The translations under genes and the position numbers were made by a program. From Eubacterium coprostanoligenes (GTDB lineage Bacteria; Bacillota; Clostridia; Oscillospirales; Acutalibacteraceae), in the NCBI RefSeq assembly GCF_900167205.1, contig NZ_FUWW01000004.1, positions 1 through 64,000 on the forward strand: a stretch of DNA of 64,000 nucleotides. Reading direction: 5' to 3'. Of the stretch, positions 37,663 to 52,912 are shown one piece after another (position 1 is the stretch's first letter; each line of letters begins with the position of its first letter). Below the pieces are notes generated by a model that was given only the letters and a program-made list of their open reading frames with translations, had not been told where the DNA came from and made no database searches.

Positions 37663-37743
37663 GTTGAATATTGTCCCTACAAAGAATTGAAATTTTGTGA
37701 TAAAATAAATATGTATAAGTTTGTATAAAGATTGGTGATTTAT

Positions 37744-40428
37744 ATGAGAAAAAACGGAAAGAGGATATTTTCGCTGATACTTTCGGTAGTACTTTGTCTT
37801 ACAACTTTTCTTTCGGTAATGCCCGTTGGCGCAAAAACCGAAAAAGAACCCGGTTCAAGATTGACTCATTCATTTGATAAATCAACAGGAGTTCTTACTA
37901 TTTCAGGCACAGGCGAAATGTTTGATTTTGGCGATGGCTCTATTACAAGTAAGCAACCGCCTTGGCTGGATTATAAGCCTGATATAAAAAAAGTTGTTAT
38001 TGAAAACGGCGTAACATCTGTCGGAAAATATGCTTTTTATAATTGTGAAAATCTTACTTCTGTTTCGTTGCCTGAATCAGTCACAACTATTAATGGCGGT
38101 GGTGTAACAGGCGGTGCTGCCGGAACAAACGGCTTATCATTTGGTGCGTTTCGTGATTGTAAAAAACTTACGGAAATCAATTTCCCAAGCAAATTGCAAA
38201 GCATCGGTATTGCTGCATTCCGTGGCTGTACTTCGCTTAAAAAGGTTGTTCTGCCGGACAGCGTTACCTCATTGGGGGCAGGTGCTTTTGTCGGATGTGA
38301 GGGATTAACCGAAGTTACTATCGGCGCCGGATTGACGGAACTTTCGATAGAGTGTTTTTATAATTGCACAAAACTTGCAAAAGTTGATTGGGGTCCAAGT
38401 TTAAAGAAGGTCAGCGAATGGTCTTTCTTCAATACCTATTTCAAAGAAATCTCTTTCCCGGAACAAATAACAGAAATCGGAGCTCGTGCTTTTGCAAACT
38501 GTTATTTCTTGACCAACGCATATTTCTACAACAGAAATTGTAAAATTTCAGAAGTTCTTAGTTTAGGTGTTACGGGAACTGTGGGCAATCCTTTTGATAA
38601 TGCGGGAATCAAGGGCAATCAAAAGTTCACCGTTCATGGCTATCCTGGCTCAACTGCCGAAACTTTTGCCAATGAAAAGAAGTACGAGTTTGCTTCTCTT
38701 GACACTTGCAAACACGAGCATACACACATCAATGTTAAAAAGCCTGCAACTTGCACGGAAGCAGGATTGCAGGATGTGTATTGCGATGATTGCAATACTG
38801 TTATCAACCCTGATGTTGCAATTCCTGCAACGGGTCATGATTTTGAGATAATTTCAACAAGTGATGACACTGCTGTTGACGGTCATATTCGTCAGTATGA
38901 AAAGTGCAGAACCTGTAATTATGAGGATGTAAAACTCACTCATGTTGAGGCAGAGGACAGTGGAACAATCAAAAAATATATTTGGGTGGATGGAAAGTAC
39001 ACCTACACCAATACCGCAACCTGCACTGTTCCCGGTGTGGAAACTTATACTTGTACGGTTGACGGATGTGGCGTTGTTCAAAGAAATGCTGTTAAAAAAG
39101 CCGGTCACAAAGTTGAAAATTGGACTGTTACAAAAGAGCCAAACTGCGTAGAAGAGGGCTCAAGAACAGGACATTGCTCTGTTTGTGACAAGGATGTAAC
39201 CGAAGCTATTGCAAAAACCGGTCACACATTAGATACACAAAATCCTGTAAAGGTTGAGGATAAAACCGAAACAGACGGTCATATTTATTCAACATATGCT
39301 TGCTCTGTTTGCGGTGAGCAGGTCGTTCAAACAAATCATACTGCTTGGGTTGAGGGTCAATATACACCTAATGTTTTGGCAAAACCAACTTGCACAACAG
39401 ACGGTTACAGGCGTGACAAATGCGATATTTGTGGCGAAACAAGAACAATTACACTTCCTTCAAACGGCGGACACACTTGGGAAGTGACCGAACAGGTTGA
39501 ACCAACTTGCACAACAAAGGGTCAAACTAACTATAAGTGTTCAGTGTGCGATGCTACAAAGAAAGATTCCGAAGTGCCTGCATTAGGTCATAGTTATGTC
39601 GTCCAAAAAGAATTAACTGTTAATCCGACATGTACCGAAGCCGGTTCGCAAACTTTCAAATGCTCTCGTTGCTCGGCATCAAAAACCGATGTTCTTCCTG
39701 CAACAGGACATTCGCCTGATATTATGAATAATGAGATTATCAAGAATGCGGATTGCGAAAATGCAGGAGCCGGACACACAACTTGCTTTGTTTGCGGTGT
39801 GGAATATGATTATGTAATAGAGCCTCTCGGTCATAAATTTGAAAATATCGAAGCACCAATTGCCGATAAGCCGGGTCATGTGCTTTCAACTCCGACTTGT
39901 ACTCGTTGCGGTCAAAAACAAACTGCTTCAGTTGTTCATAAAGAATGGGTAAAAGGCTATTATAATCATCGTGTTATTTCGGAAGCTACCTGCCTTGTGG
40001 GCGAAATTTTTGTTGATACTTGCACAATTTGTAACCAAACAACAGGCAACACTCAAGGTGCTCCGTTAGGTCACGAATTTCAACTTGTTCGTTTGTATGA
40101 AGAACCTACTGAATTGGCGGTTAACGACAAATTAAAGGTTGAGCCTTTCAGTGCGATTTATTCCTGCAAGCACTGCCGTATGATGGAAGCGAAGAACGGA
40201 AAAGCGTTGTTCGAAATGTGGGATAGGGGATACTATAATACTGCTCCGTCTGAAAGAACAGCGGTTGATTATTCAACCTATCTTGATGTAAACAACGATG
40301 GAATCATCAATGCAAAAGACTATGCAATTATGTATTTCTTAAGCAAAGACTATGAGCAATACAAAGCTGAACAGGCTCAAAATCCTGAACAAACAGACCA
40401 AAACGCAGGTGATTCAACAAATAATTAA
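37744..40428 (+). CDS. Secreted LRR (BspA-like) protein with Cys-rich repeats and dockerin-like loop
   Basis: The 894-aa protein has a signal peptide (RIFSLILSVVLCLTTFLSVM, cleavage near VGA-K). BspA-type leucine-rich repeats follow to about residue 300 (KYAFYNCENLTSVSLPESV, AFRGCTSLKKVVLPDSV). About eight Cys-rich units come next, with the pattern P-x-CT-x-x-G-x-x-x-x-x-C-x-x-C followed by PATGH or similar. Near the C-terminus one dockerin-type calcium loop (LDVNNDGIINAKDYAIMYFL) is visible, then an acidic/Gln tail. Only one loop is clear, whereas a type I dockerin has two. It is probably a cell-surface or cellulosome-like adhesion protein. The ATG at 37744 follows GGTGAT; a GTG at 37732 is inside that site. 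Confidence 0.87.
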   Translation: MRKNGKRIFSLILSVVLCLTTFLSVMPVGAKTEKEPGSRLTHSFDKSTGVLTISGTGEMFDFGDGSITSKQPPWLDYKPDIKKVVIENGVTSVGKYAFYNCENLTSVSLPESVTTINGGGVTGGAAGTNGLSFGAFRDCKKLTEINFPSKLQSIGIAAFRGCTSLKKVVLPDSVTSLGAGAFVGCEGLTEVTIGAGLTELSIECFYNCTKLAKVDWGPSLKKVSEWSFFNTYFKEISFPEQITEIGARAFANCYFLTNAYFYNRNCKISEVLSLGVTGTVGNPFDNAGIKGNQKFTVHGYPGSTAETFANEKKYEFASLDTCKHEHTHINVKKPATCTEAGLQDVYCDDCNTVINPDVAIPATGHDFEIISTSDDTAVDGHIRQYEKCRTCNYEDVKLTHVEAEDSGTIKKYIWVDGKYTYTNTATCTVPGVETYTCTVDGCGVVQRNAVKKAGHKVENWTVTKEPNCVEEGSRTGHCSVCDKDVTEAIAKTGHTLDTQNPVKVEDKTETDGHIYSTYACSVCGEQVVQTNHTAWVEGQYTPNVLAKPTCTTDGYRRDKCDICGETRTITLPSNGGHTWEVTEQVEPTCTTKGQTNYKCSVCDATKKDSEVPALGHSYVVQKELTVNPTCTEAGSQTFKCSRCSASKTDVLPATGHSPDIMNNEIIKNADCENAGAGHTTCFVCGVEYDYVIEPLGHKFENIEAPIADKPGHVLSTPTCTRCGQKQTASVVHKEWVKGYYNHRVISEATCLVGEIFVDTCTICNQTTGNTQGAPLGHEFQLVRLYEEPTELAVNDKLKVEPFSAIYSCKHCRMMEAKNGKALFEMWDRGYYNTAPSERTAVDYSTYLDVNNDGIINAKDYAIMYFLSKDYEQYKAEQAQNPEQTDQNAGDSTNN

Positions 40429-41760: not shown

Positions 41761-42315
41761 ATGGATACAATTTTTGCAAAAACAACAGAGAGAATGGAAA
41801 AATGTCTTGACTCTCTTGACAGAGATTTTTCAACAATCAGAGCAGGCAGAGCCAATCCAAATGTTCTCAATAATGTTATGGTAGATTACTATGGCACTCC
41901 GACAAAGGTTGACCAAATGGCAGCTGTTTCCGTTCCTGAACCAAGAATGCTTGTAATTCAACCATGGGACGCTTCAATGCTTAAAGAAATCGAAAAGGCA
42001 ATCAATGTTGCTGAAATCGGCATCAATCCTCAAAATGACGGCAAGGTTATCCGTCTTACTTTCCCTCAGCTCACAGAGGAACACAGAAAGACTCTTGTAA
42101 AGGATGTATCAAAGCGTGGCGAGGAAGCAAAGGTTGCTATCCGTAATGTTCGCCGTGATTCAATGGACGATGTAAAGAAACTCAAGAAAGCAAACGAAAT
42201 CACCGAGGATGAGCAAAAAGACGGTGAAAAGAAACTTCAGGATCTTACAGATAAGTACATCAAAAATGTTGAAGAAATGACAAAGAAGAAAGAGGAAGAA
42301 ATCCTTTCTATCTAA
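41761..42315 (+). CDS. frr: Ribosome recycling factor
   Basis: The 184-aa protein has the RRF three-helix bundle pattern: LDSLDRDFSTIRAGRANPNVL near the start and KDVSKRGEEAKVAIRNVRRD in the second half. It separates post-termination ribosomes with EF-G. It begins 30 nt after pyrH with AGAGAGG upstream. Length and sequence are typical. Confidence 0.98.
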   Translation: MDTIFAKTTERMEKCLDSLDRDFSTIRAGRANPNVLNNVMVDYYGTPTKVDQMAAVSVPEPRMLVIQPWDASMLKEIEKAINVAEIGINPQNDGKVIRLTFPQLTEEHRKTLVKDVSKRGEEAKVAIRNVRRDSMDDVKKLKKANEITEDEQKDGEKKLQDLTDKYIKNVEEMTKKKEEEILSI

Positions 42316-42336
42316 TTTTGAATTATCATTATGTGT

Positions 42337-42358
42337 GGGCGATGCGTTTGCTTCGCCC
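42337..42358 (+). terminator. Hairpin between frr and uppS
   Basis: GGGCGA/TCGCCC stem with an internal mismatch and GC/GC extension in the 71-nt frr-uppS gap, followed 11 nt later by ACTTTTTT. It may be a weak or processing terminator inside the operon. Confidence 0.4.
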
Positions 42359-42386
42359 TATAACACTTTTTTAAGGAGACAAAAAT

Positions 42387-43115
42387 ATGGCTCTTTTTTC
42401 AAAAAAAGAAAACAGTACCACTCTTGAAAGACCGCATTTTGATGTTCTTCCCGAGCATGTCGGCATCATTATGGACGGCAACGGCAGATGGGCAAAAAAG
42501 CGTGGACTTCCTCGCACGGCAGGTCATAAAGAAGGTGCCGAAACATTCCGCACAATATCAAAGGAATGTGGCAGACTTGGTATAAAATCAGCCACTTTTT
42601 ATGCTTTTTCAACAGAAAATTGGAAAAGACCTAAAGAAGAAGTAGACGCAATTATGTGCCTGTTCAAGCAGTATCTTCTTGAGGCAAAAGACGATATAAC
42701 CGCTGCCGAAAATAACAGACTTCGCTTTATCGGTGTCAGAGAGGGCGTTTCTGATGAACTGCTTACTCTTATGGACGAGGCTGAAGAAGAAACAAAGAAT
42801 AATACAGGCTGCGAGATTATTCTTGCCGTTAATTACGGCGGCAGAGAAGAAATTGTCAGTGCGGTTAATAAACTTATTGCAGAAGGTAAAACAAAAATTA
42901 CCGAGGATGATATAAGTAATAATGTCTACACTGCACCTGATTGTGATTTGATTATTCGCCCGTCAGGTGAACAAAGACTTTCAAACTTCTTGCTTTGGCA
43001 GGCTGCATACAGCGAGTTTTGGTACAGTGATGTTTTGTGGCCTGATTTCACTGTGAACGATTTGTATAAGGCACTTACCGATTTCCAAAACAGAAATCGC
43101 AGATTCGGAGGTTAA
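42387..43115 (+). CDS. uppS: Undecaprenyl diphosphate synthase
   Basis: The 242-aa cis-prenyltransferase has the catalytic block GIIMDGNGRWAKKRGLPRTAGHK, ATFYAFSTENWKRPKEEV, LAVNYGGREEIV and the C-terminal RPSGEQRLSNFLLWQAAYSE. It makes the C55 lipid carrier used by MraY and MurG, encoded in the dcw cluster of this window. AAGGAG precedes the ATG; cdsA starts 4 nt after its stop. Confidence 0.97.
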   Translation: MALFSKKENSTTLERPHFDVLPEHVGIIMDGNGRWAKKRGLPRTAGHKEGAETFRTISKECGRLGIKSATFYAFSTENWKRPKEEVDAIMCLFKQYLLEAKDDITAAENNRLRFIGVREGVSDELLTLMDEAEEETKNNTGCEIILAVNYGGREEIVSAVNKLIAEGKTKITEDDISNNVYTAPDCDLIIRPSGEQRLSNFLLWQAAYSEFWYSDVLWPDFTVNDLYKALTDFQNRNRRFGG

Positions 43116-43119
43116 CAAA

Positions 43120-43998
43120 ATGAAGCAAAGACTTATTACAGCAGGCGTGCTATTGGCACTTCTTGCAGTTGTTGTTTGGCAAATATATACACCGCTGTTC
43201 ATTATTGTAATTGCATTTTTGTCAGCAGTTGCATCCAATGAAATTATGAAATGTGCAAAGGTTTCAAACAAATTTATTGTTATTTTTGGCACGGCAGTCG
43301 GTGCAATCATCCCGTTTACATCAAGCGACAGCATTATGTCTCCTTGGATAAGCGAGGAAAAGTGGGGCAGTTTTATTTCAACAGTCCCGTCTCTTGCGTT
43401 CATCTTTTTGATTATTATTGCGTTTTTCCTTGCAATGATTTTTGATTATGAACACACAAAGTTTGAGGATGTTGCAATCAGCATTGTTGCTTCAATTGCC
43501 GTTCCGTACGGTTTTTCGATGTTTGCTATGCTTCGTGATATGTATGGCTACAGAGCACAGCTTGGTGTTTATCTCATTTTCTACGGTCTTATTGCCGCTC
43601 TTGGAACAGATACAGGCGCACAGCTCGGCGGTATGGCATTCGGCAAGCACAAAATGGCACCTCACATCTCTCCAAAAAAGACAAAAGAGGGTGCTCTTTG
43701 CGGAATTTGCACATCGTTTGTGCTCAACATCTTTGCAATGCTTTTGTTCAATAAACTTGCTTATTCTCCGCTCAACAAAAATTTGGTTACAACACTTCTT
43801 ATTGCAGAGCCGTTTGTTGCATTTTTGAGCATGATGGGCGACCTCTCGGCGTCTGTGCTTAAGCGTAACTTTGATGTTAAGGACTTTGGCAAAATCTTCC
43901 CGGGTCACGGCGGTGTAATGGATAGATTTGACTCGTCACTTTTCTCAATTCCGCTTACATATTGTGTGGTTGAGATTTTCAACAATGCCGTAAGATAA
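43120..43998 (+). CDS. cdsA: Phosphatidate cytidylyltransferase
   Basis: The 292-aa protein has about eight membrane spans and the CTP transferase signature near the C-terminus (SASVLKRNFDVKDFGKIFPG then HGGVMDRFDS). It forms CDP-diacylglycerol from phosphatidate and CTP for phospholipid synthesis. It is closely spaced between uppS and dxr. Its ATG has GGAGG, which overlaps the end of uppS. Confidence 0.95.
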   Translation: MKQRLITAGVLLALLAVVVWQIYTPLFIIVIAFLSAVASNEIMKCAKVSNKFIVIFGTAVGAIIPFTSSDSIMSPWISEEKWGSFISTVPSLAFIFLIIIAFFLAMIFDYEHTKFEDVAISIVASIAVPYGFSMFAMLRDMYGYRAQLGVYLIFYGLIAALGTDTGAQLGGMAFGKHKMAPHISPKKTKEGALCGICTSFVLNIFAMLLFNKLAYSPLNKNLVTTLLIAEPFVAFLSMMGDLSASVLKRNFDVKDFGKIFPGHGGVMDRFDSSLFSIPLTYCVVEIFNNAVR

Positions 43999-44020
43999 AC
44001 AAATTTAGCAGGTAATTGAT

Positions 44021-45169
44021 ATGACAAAAAATATTTCACTTTTGGGTTCAACCGGTTCAATCGGTACTCAGTCACTTGATGTTGCAAGACTTCAAGGATA
44101 TAACATAAAATGCCTAACAGCCAACTCTCGTGTTGATGTTATCGAACAGCAAATCAGAGAGTTTAAGCCTGAACTTGTTTGTATGATGAACGAGGACTCG
44201 GCAAAGGAACTTAAATCAAAAATCGCAGACACCGACACAAAGGTTGTTTGCGGTATGGACGGTCTTATTGAATGTGCAACATATGACGGTGCGGATACCG
44301 TGCTTAATTCCGTTGTCGGTATGGTTGGACTTCAACCGACTTTGGAGGCTATCAAGGCAAAGAAAACCATTGCTCTTGCAAATAAAGAAACACTTGTTGC
44401 CGGCGGTCATTTGGTGACAAATCTTGCAAAGAAAAACGGTGTTTCAATCCTTCCTGTTGACAGCGAGCATTCAGCGATTTTTCAGGCTATGCAAGGCTCA
44501 CCGAACAAGGAGGCAATAAAAAAGATTATACTCACGGCATCGGGCGGACCGTTTTTCGGCAAGACTTTAAGCGAACTTGAAAATGTCACTCCTGCCGATG
44601 CACTCAAACACCCTAATTGGGATATGGGCGCAAAAATCACCATCGACAGTGCTACAATGATGAACAAAGGTCTTGAATTTATCGAGGCAAAGTGGCTGTT
44701 TGATATGCCAAATGACGATATAGAAATCGTTGTGCACAGAGAGTCGGTTGTTCACTCGGCTATTGTTTATCGTGACAATTCGATGATTGCACAACTCGGC
44801 GTGCCTGATATGCGTATTCCTATTCAGTACGCACTCACATATCCCGAAAGAGTGGAAAGTCCTGTTGGCGAACTTTCACTTGCGGATTATGGCAAACTCA
44901 CATTCTTTGAGCCTGATTATGACACTTTCAAGTGCATCAATGTTTGCAAGGACGCAATCGAAAAGGGCGGACTTCATCCTGCTGCAGCAAACGGTGCAAA
45001 CGAGGAAAGCGTAAAACTCTTCCTTGCAGGCAAAATTAAATTTACGGATATTGCATATCTTAATAATGAGGCTATGCTCCGAGCAGACAGCAAATCTGAT
45101 TTTACTCTTGATGATGTGCTTGAAGCTGACCGTAAAGCAAGAGATTATGTATTGGAGTGCGTTGATTAA
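44021..45169 (+). CDS. dxr: 1-deoxy-D-xylulose 5-phosphate reductoisomerase
   Basis: The 382-aa protein starts with the NADPH loop SLLGSTGSIGTQSLDV. It contains IALANKETLVAGG, the metal/substrate motif PVDSEHSAIFQAMQG, and TASGGPFFGKTLSEL. It catalyses the second step of the MEP isoprenoid pathway, and IspG of the same pathway is two genes downstream. Its stop overlaps the rseP start (TAATG). Confidence 0.97.
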   Translation: MTKNISLLGSTGSIGTQSLDVARLQGYNIKCLTANSRVDVIEQQIREFKPELVCMMNEDSAKELKSKIADTDTKVVCGMDGLIECATYDGADTVLNSVVGMVGLQPTLEAIKAKKTIALANKETLVAGGHLVTNLAKKNGVSILPVDSEHSAIFQAMQGSPNKEAIKKIILTASGGPFFGKTLSELENVTPADALKHPNWDMGAKITIDSATMMNKGLEFIEAKWLFDMPNDDIEIVVHRESVVHSAIVYRDNSMIAQLGVPDMRIPIQYALTYPERVESPVGELSLADYGKLTFFEPDYDTFKCINVCKDAIEKGGLHPAAANGANEESVKLFLAGKIKFTDIAYLNNEAMLRADSKSDFTLDDVLEADRKARDYVLECVD

Positions 45170-46200
45170 TGTCACACATTTGGCAAACCGTTTATCCTAT
45201 ATTGATAGCAATTCTTTTCTTTGAACTCATCATTTTGGTGCACGAGGGAGGACATTTCTTTGCTGCCAAGATGATGAAAGTTAAGGTTAATGAGTTTTCA
45301 ATCGGTATGGGTCCAAAACTTTTTCAATTTCAAAAAGGCGACACCAAGTTTACTCTCCGCCTTATTCTCTTTGGTGGCTATTGTGCCATGGAGGGCGAGG
45401 ACAGCGAGAGTGATGACAAAAATTCTTTTGCCAACAAAAAGGTGATTCAGCGAGTGTTTGTTGTGGTTGCCGGTGCTGTAATGAATTTAATTTTAGGTGT
45501 GCTTATCATTTTAGGTATGGTGTGTTCGCAGGAACTTGTGGGCACTCCTGTTGTTGCCGATTTTGACAAAGACGCTGTGTCGAATGCTTATTTGGAGCAG
45601 AATGACAGAATTTTAGCCATTGACGGTATGCGTGTTTACACAACAACCGACATCACAACAGGTTTTTCAAGAAGTGCTGACGGTGAGGTTGAGTTTTTGA
45701 TTAAGCGTGACGGCAAAACAAAGACCGTTAATGCAAAATTCAACACACAAAAGATTGACGGTAAAAACTATATTGATATGGATTTTTACCTTTATGGTGT
45801 TGAAAAAACAGTGCCAAATGTTTTGAGGGAAACAGGCAGACAGTTTATGTCATTTTGCAGAATGATTTTTCTCTCCCTTCATGATTTGATTACAGGAAAA
45901 TACGGTTTGTCGGATATGAGCGGACCTGTCGGCACTGTGTCTGTTGTGTCGGGTGCAGTAAAAATGAGCCTGACTTCAACATTTAGGATTATGGCTTTTC
46001 TCACAATAAATATCGGACTTTTCAATCTGTTTCCGTTCCCGGCGCTTGACGGATGGAAATTATTTATCCTTCTTTATGAGGGAATATTCAAGAAAAAGCT
46101 TCCACAAAAATTTGAGTGGATGATAAACGCAGTCGGTCTTGCTGTTTTGCTTGGATTGATGTGCTTGGTTACATTTTCGGATATAACAAAATTGTTTTAG
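45169..46200 (+). CDS. rseP: Site-2 intramembrane zinc metalloprotease RseP/RasP
   Basis: The 343-aa membrane protease has the zinc motif LVHEGGHFFAAK in the first helix, one PDZ domain (about 130-210, EQNDRILAIDGMRV), and the second catalytic motif FPALDGWKL near the C-terminus. It cuts membrane-embedded anti-sigma factors and leftover signal peptides. Start and dxr stop overlap (TAATG), indicating coupling. One PDZ domain is standard for Gram-positive RasP. Confidence 0.95.
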   Translation: MSHIWQTVYPILIAILFFELIILVHEGGHFFAAKMMKVKVNEFSIGMGPKLFQFQKGDTKFTLRLILFGGYCAMEGEDSESDDKNSFANKKVIQRVFVVVAGAVMNLILGVLIILGMVCSQELVGTPVVADFDKDAVSNAYLEQNDRILAIDGMRVYTTTDITTGFSRSADGEVEFLIKRDGKTKTVNAKFNTQKIDGKNYIDMDFYLYGVEKTVPNVLRETGRQFMSFCRMIFLSLHDLITGKYGLSDMSGPVGTVSVVSGAVKMSLTSTFRIMAFLTINIGLFNLFPFPALDGWKLFILLYEGIFKKKLPQKFEWMINAVGLAVLLGLMCLVTFSDITKLF

Positions 46201-46217
46201 ATATTAGGGAGTAGATT

Positions 46218-47261
46218 ATGAGAACTTCTAAAAAAATAAAAGTAGGCAATACATTTCTTGGTGGCGACAGCCCTGTATTGGTGCAAAGTATGCTTAATGT
46301 TCCGTCAACAGATATTGACGGCTCTGTAAAGCAGGCAGTTGAACTTGAAAAGGCAGGATGTCAAATTATCCGCTTTGCTATTCCAAACGAGGAGGCTTTG
46401 GCACTTGTTGAGCCTATCAAAAAAGCAACTACAGTTCCGCTTGTTGCAGATATTCATTTCGATTACAGACTTGCTATCGGTGCTGCCGAAAGAGGAATAG
46501 ACAAGATTCGTATCAATCCGGGAAATATCGGCTCGGAAGACAGAGTAAAGGCAGTTGCCGATATATGCAAACAAAAGGAACTTCCGATCAGAATCGGTGT
46601 AAACAGCGGTTCACTTGAAAAGCATATTCTTGAAAAATACGGCTCGCCGACTCCCGAAGCTATGGTGGAGTCTGCGCTTTATCACGCTTCACTTCTTGAA
46701 AAATTTGATTTTGATGACATTGTGATTTCAATCAAGTCATCAAATGTAAACACTATGATTAAGGCTTATGAACTTGCCGCAGAAAAATGCAATTATCCTC
46801 TCCACCTCGGCGTAACAGAGGCGGGCACAGAGCGTATGGGCATCATCAAATCAGCTGTTGGCATCGGCTCGCTTCTTACTCATGGAATAGGTGACACCAT
46901 CCGTGTAAGCCTCACCGATGACCCTGTGAAAGAGGTTTATGCCGCACAGGATATATTAAAGGCAATAGGTCTTAAAACCGATTGTCCGTACCTTGTTTCT
47001 TGCCCGACCTGCGGAAGAACAAGAATTGACCTTGTAGGTCTTGCAAAGCAGGTTGAAGAGCGACTTCGTGATTGCAAAAAGCCGATTACCGTTGCTGTTA
47101 TGGGCTGTATTGTTAACGGTCCGGGCGAAGCAAAAGAGGCAGACATCGGAGTTGCAGGCGGTGACGGTTGCGGACTTATTTTCAAAAAAGGCGAAATTCT
47201 CCGCAAAGTTCCCGAAAATGAATTATTAGACGAATTGATGAAAGAGATAGACAAACTATAA
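46218..47261 (+). CDS. ispG: 4-hydroxy-3-methylbut-2-enyl diphosphate synthase (flavodoxin)
   Basis: The 347-aa TIM-barrel/[4Fe-4S] enzyme contains PSTDIDGSVKQAVELEKAGC in the barrel. The Fe-S ligands are in PYLVSCPTCGRTRIDL and AVMGCIVNGPGEAKEADIG. It catalyses the penultimate MEP pathway step. TTAGGGAGT precedes the ATG, and its stop overlaps the polC start (TAATG). Confidence 0.97.
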   Translation: MRTSKKIKVGNTFLGGDSPVLVQSMLNVPSTDIDGSVKQAVELEKAGCQIIRFAIPNEEALALVEPIKKATTVPLVADIHFDYRLAIGAAERGIDKIRINPGNIGSEDRVKAVADICKQKELPIRIGVNSGSLEKHILEKYGSPTPEAMVESALYHASLLEKFDFDDIVISIKSSNVNTMIKAYELAAEKCNYPLHLGVTEAGTERMGIIKSAVGIGSLLTHGIGDTIRVSLTDDPVKEVYAAQDILKAIGLKTDCPYLVSCPTCGRTRIDLVGLAKQVEERLRDCKKPITVAVMGCIVNGPGEAKEADIGVAGGDGCGLIFKKGEILRKVPENELLDELMKEIDKL

Positions 47262-50200
47262 TGGCGAAAATATACGATTACTTTTCTCAATATATTGACG
47301 GTGACGATTTGGCGATTGTCGGCAGTGGCGAAATAACTCGCTTTGCCGTTTATCGTGAAGCACGCAGGCTTGAACTCGGCGTGCTCCTTGATAAAACCGT
47401 TGATTATTCCGTTATTGAGCGTATTCAAAAATCACTTGTAAAAAATTTACAGCTTGAAAATGCTGAACTTAATATAAAATATCCGAGCAGTCTTTTCAGT
47501 ACGGAAACTGTTCCTGTTGTGCTTTCAAAAATCGGTGCACTCAATCCCGTTGTCAATGGATTTTTTGATAATGCGGATGCCGAAATTGAGGATAATATTC
47601 TCACCATTTGCCTCAAAAACGGCGGAAAAGAATTGCTTGAGGCACAGGAAGTAAACAAGGACATTATTCGTGCCGTATATGATATGTTTGGTGTTGACCT
47701 TGATGATGTCTCATTTTTAGAGGTTGAAACATTTGATATGGAGTCGGCTGTTCGCAAGGCGGCAGAAGCAAAGGCGGCAGAAAAGGCAAAAGAGGAAGCC
47801 GAAAAAGAAAAATATGTTCCACATGTTCAGCTTGGAGATTTGCCGCTTTATGCCGACACACGCAAGCAGATTATGGGCAGACCGATTAAGGATTTGCCAA
47901 AACCTATTAAAGAAATCCGACCTGATGACGGCTTCGTTACCGTTTGGGGCGATATATTCAACCTTGATGTTCGTGATACAAAGCGTGGCGACTCCCGTAT
48001 TTTAACTTTCTGCATCACAGACCAAACTTCTTCAGTGTCGGTTAAAATCTTTGAAAAAAGAAATATAATTGACCCGATTATCAAAAATCTTGAAGCGGCG
48101 GGAACAATTCTTATAAGCGGTCTTTACAAACTCGATACATATTTAAATGAGTATATTATTATGCCGAATCATATCGAGTCAATCAAGAAGATTGAAAAGC
48201 AGGATACTGCCGAGGAAAAAAGAGTTGAACTCCATATGCACAGCTCTATGTCTGAAATGGATGGTATGACTCCTGTTTCAAAACTCGTTGAGCGTGCGGC
48301 AAAGTGGGGTCACAGAGCCGTTGCCATCACAGACCACGGCGTTGTTCAGGCTTTGCCGGAAGCATACGCAACCGCAAAATCAAAGGGCATAAAACTTATT
48401 CTCGGTATGGAGGGATATTTGGTTGACGACACCCTTTATCCTGATTTTATGAATATGAAGTCGAGGGATTTCCAACGCCATCATATAATTCTTCTTGTCA
48501 AGGCAGACAATTCTATGCCTATGCGACTTGATGAAAATTGGCGACCTGTTATGGACGAGCCGGAGGACGGAATCATCCACCGAGGCAGAAAGAATTTGTA
48601 CGAACTTATTTCAAGTTCAAATGTAAAGACCTTTAAAAATCGTCCGCTTATTCCAAAAACCATGCTTGCTAAAAAGCGAGAGGATATTTTGATTGGTTCT
48701 GCTTGTGAACAGGGCGAGATTATTCAGGCTATCCTCAGAGGAAAGTCTGATGACGAACTCTTGAAATTGGCAGAATTCTATGATTATTTGGAAATTCAGC
48801 CAAACGGTAACAATGAATTTATGCTCCACACAAGCGATCAAGAATATATCACGACAAAAAGAGGCGAGCAGAAATACAATCCTTATTGGAGGGTAAATAC
48901 CGAAGAAGACCTAATAAATATAAATAAAAAAGTTGTTGAACTTGCGGACAAGCTCGGAAAACTTGTTGTTGCAACGGGAGATGTTCATTTTCTCGACCCT
49001 GAAGATTCAAAGCTTCGTGCCATTGTTATGGCATCAAAGGGATTTGATGACGCCGACAATCAAGCACCTCTTTACTTTAAAACAACTGATGAAATGCTTG
49101 AGGACTTTGCTTGGGCAGGCGACAGAGCAAAGGAATTTGTTGTTGACAATCCAAACAAGATTGCCGATATGATTCAGGACAAACTTCCGCCTATCCCACC
49201 GGGAACTTATCAGCCTTACATTGAGGGTGCTGATGACGAACTTACCGAAAAGTGCTGGGCGACTGCAAAAGAACTATACGGTGACCCTGTTCCCGAATAT
49301 GTTGCATCCCGTCTTGAAAGAGAACTTAATTCGATTATTTCTCACGGATACGGCGTGCTTTATGTAATTGCCAAGCGTCTTGTTGAGGAAAGCGAAAGAC
49401 GAGGTTATTTGGTTGGTTCAAGAGGTTCTGTAGGCTCTTCTCTTGCCGCTCACTTTGGCGGTATATCGGAGGTTAACCCTCTTGCGCCTCACTATTATTG
49501 CAAAAAATGTAAGCACAGCGAATTTTTCCTCAACGGTGAATACGGTTCAGGTTTTGACTTGCCTAAAAAGGATTGTCCTGTTTGTGGCGAACCGATGAAG
49601 CGGGACGGCCACGAAATTCCGTTTGAAACATTCCTTGGCTTTGACGGTGATAAAGAGCCTGATATCGACCTTAACTTCTCGGGTGAGGTACAAGGTCAAA
49701 TCCATAGATTTACCGAAACTTTGTTTGGTAAGGAATATGTGTTCAAAGCAGGCACAATGTCCACTATTGCAGAAAAAACCGCATACGGATATGTTCTCAA
49801 TTATTTCCGTGAGCGTGACAAATATACAGGCGAGCGTGTTGAAAAGGCAAAAGAAAATCTTGCCGAAAGCAACAGTATGCTCTCAACAATTCCAAGAGCC
49901 GAGGTTGAGCGACTTGCAACCCTCATTGACAAGGGCAAGATTACAAGAACAACAGGTCAGCACCCGGGCGGAATGGTTGTTGTGCCGGACAAGTACACGG
50001 TTGAGGACTTCACACCTATTCAGTATCCGTCAAATGATGAGAAAAAGGGTACATACACAACTCACTTCGACTTTAAGAATTCACTTCACGACACACTTTT
50101 AAAGCTTGATGAACTCGGACACGATAATCCGACACTGTATAAATACCTTGAGGACTCCACAGGCATTCCTGTTATGGATGTTGATTTGAGCGACCCAAAG

Positions 50201-51199
50201 TTGTATGAACTTATAACCTCTTGTGCTCCGCTTGGTGTTTCACCTGAGGATATTGATAACCCTACCGGTACGCTTGCAATTCCCGAAATGGGCACACCGT
50301 TTGTTGTTGGAATGCTCACAGAGGCACAGCCAAAAACATTTGCCGACTTGCTCCAAATTTCCGGCTTGTCACACGGCACGGATGTTTGGCTCGGCAATGC
50401 GCAGGAACTTATTGACAACGGCACTTGCACCATTTCAGAGGTTATCGGATGTCGTGACGATATTATGACTTATCTCATCCATAAACTTGAAGCGTACGAA
50501 AGAAAAACAGGCAAAAAAGCCCCTCTTACAAAAAAGGATTGCTTCAAAATTATGGAATACACCCGTAAGGGTAAAGCACCAAAGGAGCTTCCGCCTTATG
50601 AGGAGGGTATGAAAACCATCGGCGTTGAGCAGTGGTATATTGATTCCTGCTATAAAATTAAATATATGTTCCCTAAAGCTCACGCTGCAGCTTATGTTAT
50701 TGCCGCACTTCGTATTGCGTGGTATAAAATTTATTATCCGGTTCAGTTTTACAGTGCGTTCTTCACCGTTCGTGGCGGTGCAATTGATGCCGTTGCGGCT
50801 GTTCAAGGCAAGGAAGCCGTTAAACGCAAGATGAACGAAATCAAGCTAAAGGGCAATGAGGCAACTGCCAAAGAAGAATCTCAATATGTCGTTTTGCAGA
50901 TTGTAATTGAGATGCTTGCCCGTGGCTATGAATTCTTGCCGGTTGACCTCAATAAATCCGATTGGCGAATTTATAAAATCGAGGACGGAAAAATTCGACT
51001 TCCGTTTTCTGCTATTGACGGTATCGGCGAAACTGCGGCACAGGCTATTGCCGACGCTGTTCAACGAAATCCTGACGGATTCGTTGCGTCCGATGACCTT
51101 GCAAACGAGCCGGGTGTCGGCAAATCGGTTGTTGATGCATTGCGTGCGGCAGGTGCTCTCGGTGATTTGCCGGAAACAACACAAATTTCTTTGTTCTGA
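47261..51199 (+). CDS. polC: DNA polymerase III alpha subunit PolC, lacking the exonuclease domain
   Basis: The 1312-aa protein is Gram-positive type PolC: N-terminal domains, OB fold (about 225-315), PHP start VELHMHSSMSEMDG (322) and ITDHG, zinc-finger CKKC...CPVC, catalytic motif PDIDLNF (Asp801/Asp803) after GSRGSVGSSLAAHFGG, palm/fingers, and C-terminal HhH region. In Bacillus-type PolC a DEDDh exonuclease of about 165-170 residues is inserted in the PHP domain after GLEAxIVDD. Here GMEGYLVDD (about 378-386) is followed by only about 55 residues before GRKNLYELISS, and no FDVETTG-type motif exists anywhere. The catalytic Asp pair lies about 164 residues earlier than in B. subtilis (965/967), the size of the missing domain. 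It is the replicative polymerase, so proofreading must come from another protein or be absent. Confidence 0.96.
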   Translation: MAKIYDYFSQYIDGDDLAIVGSGEITRFAVYREARRLELGVLLDKTVDYSVIERIQKSLVKNLQLENAELNIKYPSSLFSTETVPVVLSKIGALNPVVNGFFDNADAEIEDNILTICLKNGGKELLEAQEVNKDIIRAVYDMFGVDLDDVSFLEVETFDMESAVRKAAEAKAAEKAKEEAEKEKYVPHVQLGDLPLYADTRKQIMGRPIKDLPKPIKEIRPDDGFVTVWGDIFNLDVRDTKRGDSRILTFCITDQTSSVSVKIFEKRNIIDPIIKNLEAAGTILISGLYKLDTYLNEYIIMPNHIESIKKIEKQDTAEEKRVELHMHSSMSEMDGMTPVSKLVERAAKWGHRAVAITDHGVVQALPEAYATAKSKGIKLILGMEGYLVDDTLYPDFMNMKSRDFQRHHIILLVKADNSMPMRLDENWRPVMDEPEDGIIHRGRKNLYELISSSNVKTFKNRPLIPKTMLAKKREDILIGSACEQGEIIQAILRGKSDDELLKLAEFYDYLEIQPNGNNEFMLHTSDQEYITTKRGEQKYNPYWRVNTEEDLININKKVVELADKLGKLVVATGDVHFLDPEDSKLRAIVMASKGFDDADNQAPLYFKTTDEMLEDFAWAGDRAKEFVVDNPNKIADMIQDKLPPIPPGTYQPYIEGADDELTEKCWATAKELYGDPVPEYVASRLERELNSIISHGYGVLYVIAKRLVEESERRGYLVGSRGSVGSSLAAHFGGISEVNPLAPHYYCKKCKHSEFFLNGEYGSGFDLPKKDCPVCGEPMKRDGHEIPFETFLGFDGDKEPDIDLNFSGEVQGQIHRFTETLFGKEYVFKAGTMSTIAEKTAYGYVLNYFRERDKYTGERVEKAKENLAESNSMLSTIPRAEVERLATLIDKGKITRTTGQHPGGMVVVPDKYTVEDFTPIQYPSNDEKKGTYTTHFDFKNSLHDTLLKLDELGHDNPTLYKYLEDSTGIPVMDVDLSDPKLYELITSCAPLGVSPEDIDNPTGTLAIPEMGTPFVVGMLTEAQPKTFADLLQISGLSHGTDVWLGNAQELIDNGTCTISEVIGCRDDIMTYLIHKLEAYERKTGKKAPLTKKDCFKIMEYTRKGKAPKELPPYEEGMKTIGVEQWYIDSCYKIKYMFPKAHAAAYVIAALRIAWYKIYYPVQFYSAFFTVRGGAIDAVAAVQGKEAVKRKMNEIKLKGNEATAKEESQYVVLQIVIEMLARGYEFLPVDLNKSDWRIYKIEDGKIRLPFSAIDGIGETAAQAIADAVQRNPDGFVASDDLANEPGVGKSVVDALRAAGALGDLPETTQISLF

Positions 51200-51298: not shown

Positions 51299-52912
51299 AT
51301 GAAAAGATATTCAAAGATTACTCCGCAGGGCAGCAGAGATTATCTGTTTGAGGAGTGCGATGACAGAAGACGGGTTGAACACGAACTTTCTGTTTTGTTC
51401 AAGGAAAATAATTACAGAAAGGTAATCACTCCTGCTATTGAATACTTTGATGTTTTCAAAAGCGACAATGTCGGTATTGAATCGGAGATGATGTTCAAGA
51501 TGTCTGATTCAAAGGGCAGAACAACCGTTCTTCGCCCCGACAACACTATGCCTATTGCCCGTATGGTTGCAACACGATTGCACGATGAGGAACTTCCTGT
51601 CAGATTGTATTACAGCCAGCCTGTATTTGTCAGGGCAAAGGATTTGGCGGGCAGACCGAGTGAGATTGCTCAAAGTGGTGTTGAACTTATTGGTGACGGC
51701 TCTTTTGATGCGGATATAGAGATTGTCAAAATGGCGGTTGAAAGCCTGAAAAAAAGCAACCTCAATTCATTTAAACTTGAACTCGGCAATGCGGCATTTT
51801 TCAATGTTGTTCTTGGAAAAATGAACATTTCGCCAAATGACAGGGCAGATGTTGTCAACTATATCGAGTCAAAGAACTATGCGGCTCTCGGTGATTTGCT
51901 CGATAAAATCGGTGACACTGCCGAAACAAGAGTAATCCGCAGATTGCCTCGTCTTTTTGGCGATGCGTCTGTTATTGATGAAGCAAAAAAACTATATTCC
52001 GATTCTGCATTTCAACAGGCTTTGTTATATCTTCAAACTGTTTACAACAGGCTTTGTGACGAGGGATTGAAAGATTATATCATTCTCGACCTCGGTCTTG
52101 TGAATCGTTCAAATTATTACACAGGAATTATATTCCACGGCTATGCCGAAGGTTCGGGCATTTCTGTTCTTTCCGGCGGTAGATATGACAATCTCCTCGG
52201 CGAATTCGGTATGCCCGCTCCGGCTATCGGCTTTGCTGTTGAGGTGACTGCTTTGTGCGAGGCTATGCACGAGGTTATCAATGTTGAACGACCTATCCGC
52301 ATTGCTCTCACAAAAGGCAGATTGGAGCGAAAAACCGTTGAATTGTTCAAGACTATGGGGCTTGACACAAAGGAACTTGAAAACAAGGGAAGAAGGCTCA
52401 TTCTCCCCGTTGATAAATACGAAACCGTGCTGTCAAAAGCACCCGATGTAATTACTTATGTTGAGCACGGCGTGTGCGACATCGGCATTGTCGGCAAGGA
52501 CACAATCGTTGAGCACGGCTCATCTTTTTATGAGGTTATTGATTTGAACATCGGCAAATGCAAATTTGCCCTTGCTTGCCCAAAGGGAACAGATTTCTTT
52601 TCGGGTTATAAGCGAAAAACAGTTGCATCAAAATATCCAAAGGTTGCAAAGGAATTTTTTGAATCAAAGGGTATGGATGTTGAGGTTATCAAGATTGAGG
52701 GCAGTGTGGAGCTTGCTCCGCTTTTGGGGCTTGCAGACGGCATTATTGATATTGTTGAAACAGGCTCAACTTTGAAAGAAAACGGTCTTGAGGTTGTTGA
52801 GGACATCTTCCCGATTTCCGCAAGAGTGATAGTGAATATGGCTTCAATGAAACTTCGCAAGGCTGAAATAGAAGAATTTTTGAACGATTTGGAACTTGCG
52901 TCCCGTGTTTGA
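51299..52912 (+). CDS. hisZG: HisZ-HisG fusion: ATP phosphoribosyltransferase regulatory plus catalytic subunits
   Basis: A single 537-codon frame encodes two proteins that are normally separate. Residues 1 to about 325 are HisZ, a HisRS paralogue (KRYSKITPQGSRDYLFEECD, TVLRPDNTMPIARM, SVLSGGRYDNLLGEFG). Residues 331-537 are a complete short-form HisG (RPIRIALTKGRLERKTVELF, the PRPP loop EGSVELAPLLGLADGIIDIV, SARVIVNMASMK). Short HisG needs HisZ for activity and histidine feedback, so fusion fixes the stoichiometry. It starts the first step of histidine synthesis. The start agrees with HisZ homology although the SD is distant. A sequencing error joining two genes is unlikely, because the frame is clean across the linker. 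Confidence 0.95.
   Translation: MKRYSKITPQGSRDYLFEECDDRRRVEHELSVLFKENNYRKVITPAIEYFDVFKSDNVGIESEMMFKMSDSKGRTTVLRPDNTMPIARMVATRLHDEELPVRLYYSQPVFVRAKDLAGRPSEIAQSGVELIGDGSFDADIEIVKMAVESLKKSNLNSFKLELGNAAFFNVVLGKMNISPNDRADVVNYIESKNYAALGDLLDKIGDTAETRVIRRLPRLFGDASVIDEAKKLYSDSAFQQALLYLQTVYNRLCDEGLKDYIILDLGLVNRSNYYTGIIFHGYAEGSGISVLSGGRYDNLLGEFGMPAPAIGFAVEVTALCEAMHEVINVERPIRIALTKGRLERKTVELFKTMGLDTKELENKGRRLILPVDKYETVLSKAPDVITYVEHGVCDIGIVGKDTIVEHGSSFYEVIDLNIGKCKFALACPKGTDFFSGYKRKTVASKYPKVAKEFFESKGMDVEVIKIEGSVELAPLLGLADGIIDIVETGSTLKENGLEVVEDIFPISARVIVNMASMKLRKAEIEEFLNDLELASRV

Follow-up and report, generated by a model that had tools for sequence, protein, structure and literature searches.

Gene Content of the Locus

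The window, i.e., the whole analyzed stretch of 64,000 nucleotides of the Eubacterium coprostanoligenes genome, encoded PolC at 47261–51199 on the forward strand. As the first-pass annotation had it, the open frame was unbroken (1312 codons plus stop). Its product exceeded the cut-offs of two PolC equivalog models, NF001688 (1335.5 bits, cut-off 873) and TIGR01405 (1200.4 bits, cut-off 1043), the main stretch of these matches beginning at residue 441. A contiguous PHP domain (residues 323–507), DNA_pol3_alpha, the finger domain and HHH_6 were identified with Pfam. The domain order was NTD-OB-PHP-Pol3-HhH with an N-terminal OB domain; the NTD was recognized weakly, below cut-offs.

All parts of the gene lie on the forward strand. 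The NI/NII region (residues 22–184; 47324–47812) was divergent, with PF14480 at E 0.00076 and PF11490 at E 0.012, both below cut-offs. It is followed by the OB domain (about residues 218–310; 47912–48190), placed by alignment to 3f2b and by strands in the predicted model and named after PMC3919608. The first part of PHP (residues 321–390; 48221–48430), delimited by Pfam and alignment, contained metal ligands H325, H327, D334, H359, and E384. Alignment placed behind it a 51-residue junction (391–441; 48431–48583), which is the exonuclease site of other PolCs and includes the PHP strand HHIILLVK with ligand H408, and then the second part of PHP (residues 442–580; 48584–49000) with ligands C482, D574, and H576. 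The polymerase core (PF07733; 49238–50119) contained D801, D803, and D950, presumably the catalytic aspartates; the first two belong to the PDIDL motif and were found where they had been reported. A helix-hairpin-helix domain (PF14579, residues 1222–1304; 50924–51172) preceded the C-terminal sequence QISLF (51182–51196), a putative motif whose form we take to be of the sliding-clamp-binding type. Clamp-binding motifs are known for PolC in general (PMC3919608). The AlphaFold model of residues 210–662, built with 28 relatives, had a mean pLDDT of 86.5, and its top PDB match was PolC of G. kaustophilus (3f2b; E 2e-37, 36% identity, TM 0.72 on the query).

The cluster frr-uppS-cdsA-dxr-rseP-ispG (41761–47261, forward strand) was located immediately upstream according to family matches (cdsA below its curated cut-off), the last base of the ispG frame being the first base of polC. 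A HisZ-HisG protein and then hisD were encoded downstream. The former, adjoining the 3' side of polC (51299–52912, forward strand), is a single protein of 537 residues fusing HisZ (13–324) with HisG (333–512); hisZ-hisG fusions were previously mentioned in PMC9413887. The 898-residue product of 37732–40428 (forward strand) weakly resembled a leucine-rich repeat adhesin model, with a score far below the cut-off.

Absence of the Exonuclease Domain

The PolC of the window lacks the DEDDh exonuclease domain (Exo), and the first-pass description of it holds in its essentials. The distance from the PHP anchor D390 to the GRKNL anchor G442 was 51 residues by alignment, close to the approximately 55 estimated earlier, versus 201–227 residues in Exo-bearing relatives. 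The Pfam search of the protein revealed no exonuclease domain, and a profile built from 54 PolC Exo domains detected none either in it or in the other aligned Exo-less PolCs (best E 1.4, which fails the inclusion threshold). This profile was a trimmed one; the initial version still included the PHP strand and produced weak matches in Exo-less junctions. Relocation of Exo to another part of the protein was ruled out by the same searches. In the alignment of 180 PolC rows, anchor-to-anchor lengths formed two separate groups: 125 rows had 14–61 residues, and 54 had 201–227 residues that included a DxET-like motif, the one remaining row having 150. Twelve of the 193 loci had been dropped from the alignment for having no PolC or fewer than 1000 residues, including L113 and L159 (for which the wrong side of the gene was fetched), and L003 and L004 were omitted as copies, being the window protein itself.

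Two unusual junctions were observed. The PolC of locus L174 (genome G125) has 150 residues at the Exo site with neither a DxE motif nor a match to the Exo profile; this stretch is either a degenerate Exo or a different domain that has replaced it. The Exo-less PolC of L260 (G406) has an 88-residue junction with a start rich in Ala, Pro, and Asp.

A loss of about 500 bp near 48420–48590 during assembly was ruled out by Exo-less frames throughout the genus and in loci from named public records. In 30 of the 37 genomes of the genus, a single complete open frame of Exo-less length (1264–1325 residues) was found; the other seven (G004, G009, G011, G019, G025, G028, and G030) contained fragments, split frames, or, in G028, an impossible frame of 24238 residues. 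Exo status in genome-wide listings was judged by open-frame length, and fetched rows were read individually. Of 103 confirmed named loci, the best 80 were used, of which 72 were alignable and 8 were too short; 71 of the 72 were Exo-less, the exception being L130. Most were labeled as assemblies of uncultured Eubacterium, Oscillospiraceae, Ruminococcaceae, or Clostridia; several came from gut or rumen, and some from the same genomes as the other genus set (156 of 181 PolC sequences were distinct). Two genomes, G034 (contigs C2 and C8) and G020 (C3 and C48), encoded two PolC copies of Exo-less length each, the second copy of G020 having an internal TAG.

The domain had been described as cleanly lost. 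The strand HHIILLVK indeed runs uninterrupted through the junction; the junction itself, at 51 residues compared with 40 in most members of the genus and 27 in some, is up to 24 residues longer, and in this respect "cleanly" is too strong.

PolC without Exo was published in 2013 (Timinskas et al., PMC3919608): it made up 6% of PolC sequences, 16% in the PolC+DnaE1 class, and was restricted to Clostridia and Negativicutes with one exception. The window protein departs from the typical architecture with DEDDh inside PHP and belongs with these published forms, having OB, PHP, Pol3, and HhH without Exo beside a DnaE; no difference in domain make-up from their description in PMC3919608 was found. 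Its best sequence and fold matches were PolCs of the Bacillus type (3f2b of Geobacillus kaustophilus and 9qpc), which, unlike it, carry Exo and, in 3f2b and 9qpc, have Asn at the D574 position. Exo is missing from the 3f2b structure according to a figure legend of PMC3919608.

Losses of Exo among Relatives

Eight genomes from other genera of the same family were compared. PolC frames of seven were 1451–1493 residues long and that of G231 was 1293; six of these seven Exo-length genomes were read, and all carried Exo at the same place, while G231, also read, had none. Because other genera of the family carry Exo, it was lost in the lineage of the window, in agreement with the domain loss proposed earlier. 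The whole lineage shares this loss, which is one among many in our sample. In a polymerase-core tree of 134 PolC rows, the Exo state changed 16 times, at least 11 of them on starred branches, and in a tree of 94 rows, 11 times, at least 7 of them on starred branches; both trees, built without Exo and PHP columns, were quick ones, the larger lacking a mixture model, and stars of such trees are less trustworthy. Rows were selected to represent both states (the later set consisting of 20 short and 20 long frames), so proportions among them should not be read as frequencies, and the tally of changes varies with the selection. The genus was thinned to 12 rows. L174 was counted as Exo-less in the trees and in the sets of 62 PolCs and 26 genomes described below, and L260 in the trees and among the 62.

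All 92 Exo inserts read were located between the same two anchors. Pairwise Exo distances correlated with core distances at r 0.60 (0 of 999 permutations as high), and distances of the PHP N-part did so at r 0.55. Judging by these sequence distances, Exo and the polymerase core share a history. Because the inserts share their anchors and Exo distances track those of the core, the changes were most probably losses and not gains. The opposite direction, in which Exo was never present in the lineage of the window and was gained many times elsewhere, would fit the abundance of Exo-less lengths in the phylum: many listed PolC frames were shorter than 1300 residues, and among fetched frames 20 of 20 short ones and 2 of 20 picked as long were Exo-less. 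However, the common insertion site, the parallel distances, and the position of the window genus, nested among Exo-bearing genera in the core tree, leave this direction with hardly any credibility.

PHP Metal Site

Nine metal-ligand positions of PHP were considered as defined in PMC12926913 and PMC5636811. In the window PolC, they were HHDHEHCDH, i.e., 9 of 9 intact, and the same nine ligands were intact in the DnaE of this genome. PHP as a route to fidelity, one of the options of the first-pass annotation, is accordingly the favored one as far as the ligands go; the activity itself would follow from them by sequence comparison. Ligands were also intact in each of the 62 Exo-less PolCs compared and, leaving aside the class of genome G469, in each of 70 Exo-bearing ones. 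Since the latter retain them too, the ligands are no marker of loss, and within Clostridia, where all were intact, there was no contrast by which PHP could serve as one.

The class of G469 (151 genomes) differed: PHP was intact in 6 of 22 PolCs, which keep both PHP and Exo, whereas 15 had Asn at the equivalent of D574 and one was changed at other ligands. PolC frames of Exo length (1427–1585 residues) accounted for 149 of the 150 listed in this class, the other being a fragment of 551 residues. We take the class to be Bacilli-like from the shared Asn and other traits. As it is a single branch, shared ancestry explains its association of broken PHP with retained Exo equally well. The overall pattern of ligands fits a role of PHP as a back-up that may make Exo dispensable.

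The sixth ligand was searched for by pattern, which failed in seven rows. In three of them (the window protein, L005, and L099) the ligand was present in the alignment; L274, L282, and L285 had His in their tails and were counted as changed for Asn, and L289 was counted as changed because other ligands were altered too. In an earlier alignment, the pattern likewise missed this ligand in four Exo-bearing rows whose tails show His.

According to PMC5636811, the PolC of G. kaustophilus, with one of nine ligands changed, has no PHP exonuclease activity, the substitution D226N kills the M. tuberculosis enzyme, and DEDD exonucleases have taken the place of PHP at least three times. D226 of M. tuberculosis DnaE1 probably corresponds to D574 of the window PolC. 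Both of these proteins are replicases with a nine-ligand PHP site that carry no DEDD exonuclease; they differ in that the mycobacterial enzyme is a DnaE1 with experimentally demonstrated PHP activity (PMC5636811), while activity of the window PolC is presumed.

Stand-Alone Exonucleases and Repair Proteins

The window genome (99% complete) encoded one PF00929 protein of 290 residues, with KapD as its best family, below the cut-off (82 of 169 bits). No match to PF01612 was found in this genome; as such matches occurred in at most 8 of 14 controls (they were missing from 6 and from B. subtilis), this is not unusual. With PF00929 and PF01612, the two DEDD-type families searched, no replacement of PolC or DnaQ type was recognized in the window genome, so the separate DnaQ/epsilon-like protein suggested earlier received no support there. 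The KapD-like protein was read in 22 of the 37 genomes of the genus, with 48–60% identity in 19 of them. It has kin in Exo-bearing genomes G213 (35% identity over 272 residues) and G263 and thus does not track the loss of Exo. Four of the 37 genomes gave no PF00929 match (G035, 92% complete, and three that are 62–73% complete). Other DnaQ-like proteins were encoded in 13 of the 37, belonging in eight to a kind of 180–199 residues with a relative in Exo-bearing G320 (the others being G001, G005, G007, G014, and G022); the window genome had none of them.

Outside the genus, the PF00929 search covered 26 Exo-less genomes, 22 later-fetched ones lying outside it. No match at E 0.001 was obtained in 12 (G059 and G125 among them being 86% and 89% complete), a KapD-like protein only in two (G231 and G206), and a weak partial match in two (G082 and G142), the labels of G206, G082, and G142 deriving from length and score and that of G231 from reading. 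A DnaQ-like stand-alone protein was encoded in the other ten, comprising all four genomes of group f2, all three of f19/g19, G065, G070, and G107. Exo-bearing G042 encodes a relative of the f2 proteins; in three Exo-bearing f19 genomes the search returned PolC only, plus a weak match of 298–311 residues in two. The stand-alone proteins of f19/g19 and f2 did not group with the Exo of their sisters' PolCs, and a recent split of Exo from PolC into a gene of its own was accordingly rejected for these groups; as the tree had few columns (172) and its long branches met, an old split could have taken place. Some Exo-less lineages may therefore have moved to a separate exonuclease; the window genome bears no sign of such a move.

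The window genome encoded two C-family polymerases, PolC and DnaE, and two proteins matching MutS_V, with frames of 888 and 806 residues. The second polymerase exceeded the cut-offs of the DnaE equivalogs NF005298 and NF004226, models that do not split DnaE1 from DnaE3. Its intact PHP site is a feature described for DnaE1 in the literature.

Proposed Proofreading without the Exonuclease Domain

We propose, with a probability of roughly 60%, that the DEDDh exonuclease within PHP disappeared in an ancestor of the window PolC, a chromosomal enzyme, and that this was tolerable because PolC and its partner DnaE had both retained an intact PHP metal site as remaining proofreaders; with both sites intact, one of several proofreaders would be redundant. 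By analogy with M. tuberculosis DnaE1, the PHP site would remove mismatched primer ends in the cell, and the PHP sites of both polymerases, along with mismatch repair, would cover proofreading. The DnaQ-like stand-alone proteins of 10 of the 26 other Exo-less genomes and of 13 of the 37 genomes of the genus, the window genome not among them, count against PHP as the back-up.

Three other explanations were weighed in addition to the repeated gain of Exo considered above; all four and the preferred one are not mutually exclusive, and the probabilities that we assign total slightly more than one. A division of labor in which most copying falls to DnaE, proofread by its own PHP domain, and no longer to PolC, so that PolC could lose its exonuclease, is unlikely but the best placed of them. 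PMC3919608 wonders whether DnaE1 normally does the copying in bacteria with Exo-less PolC, raising the idea for clostridia, some of which have a single DnaE1; moreover, we failed to find a PolC match in nine listed f10 genomes or four f30 genomes, and a DnaE-like PF07733 match was present in all 12 of them looked at. Against this, the window PolC retains D801, D803, and D950 and a clamp-type end, which was seen in 57 of 62 Exo-less and 89 of 92 Exo-bearing PolCs. A separate DEDDh exonuclease acting in trans as an epsilon subunit, e.g., the KapD-like protein, is less probable still. Its retention across the genus and the short DnaQ-like protein in every genome read of f2 and f19/g19, set beside three Exo-bearing f19 genomes searched without it, speak for such an arrangement; the sub-threshold KapD match, the kin in Exo-bearing G213 and G263, the four genomes of the genus with no PF00929 match, and the restriction of the 180–199 residue kind to 8 of 37 genomes, this kind and that of f2 both having relatives in Exo-bearing genomes, weigh more heavily against it. 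We consider it very improbable that the lineage simply copies with lower fidelity and leans on mismatch repair: MutS-family proteins are present and the PF00929 and PF01612 searches recognized no DEDD proofreader, but PHP ligands undecayed in 62 of 62 Exo-less PolCs argue for continued use of the site, although this use may be structural.

The 13 genomes with no PolC match were G045, G222, G241, G257, G271, G284, G297, G311, and G325 (f10) and G064, G102, G157, and G180 (f30); the DnaE-like check covered all but G325, and G222 and G284 gave a weaker second match of unassigned kind. Loci L167, L168, and L173 (f39 and f76) encode Exo-less PolCs with no clamp-type motif in the last 14 residues, and their genomes gave no PF00929 match.

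The loss of Exo backed up by intact PHP sites could be extended to clostridial PolC as a whole, a step that we take tentatively and with slightly less than even confidence: PHP would be the working proofreader and DEDDh a redundant second one that has dropped out on at least 11 occasions, none of them observed in the class whose PHP is mostly broken. For the genus and for lineages with no PF00929 match, PHP would then be the sole proofreader of the replicase—the reverse of the replacement of PHP by DEDD that PMC5636811 describes for firmicutes. While Exo-less PolC itself was already published (PMC3919608), the count of losses, the missing substitute, and the PHP pattern are new here; our literature search, with subscription journals mostly outside it, returned no biochemical study of Exo-less PolC and no tally of independent losses.

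Among these lineages, a domain for replicative proofreading has been removed naturally and independently many times, in several cases beside a sister that still carries Exo; this makes the exonuclease role of PHP in PolC, and the question of which polymerase proofreads in PolC+DnaE1 bacteria, directly testable. Candidate separate proofreaders in Exo-less genomes are the short DnaQ-like exonucleases (open frames of 165–207 residues) of L195, L209, and L210 in f19/g19 and of L194, L211, L212, and L214 in f2.
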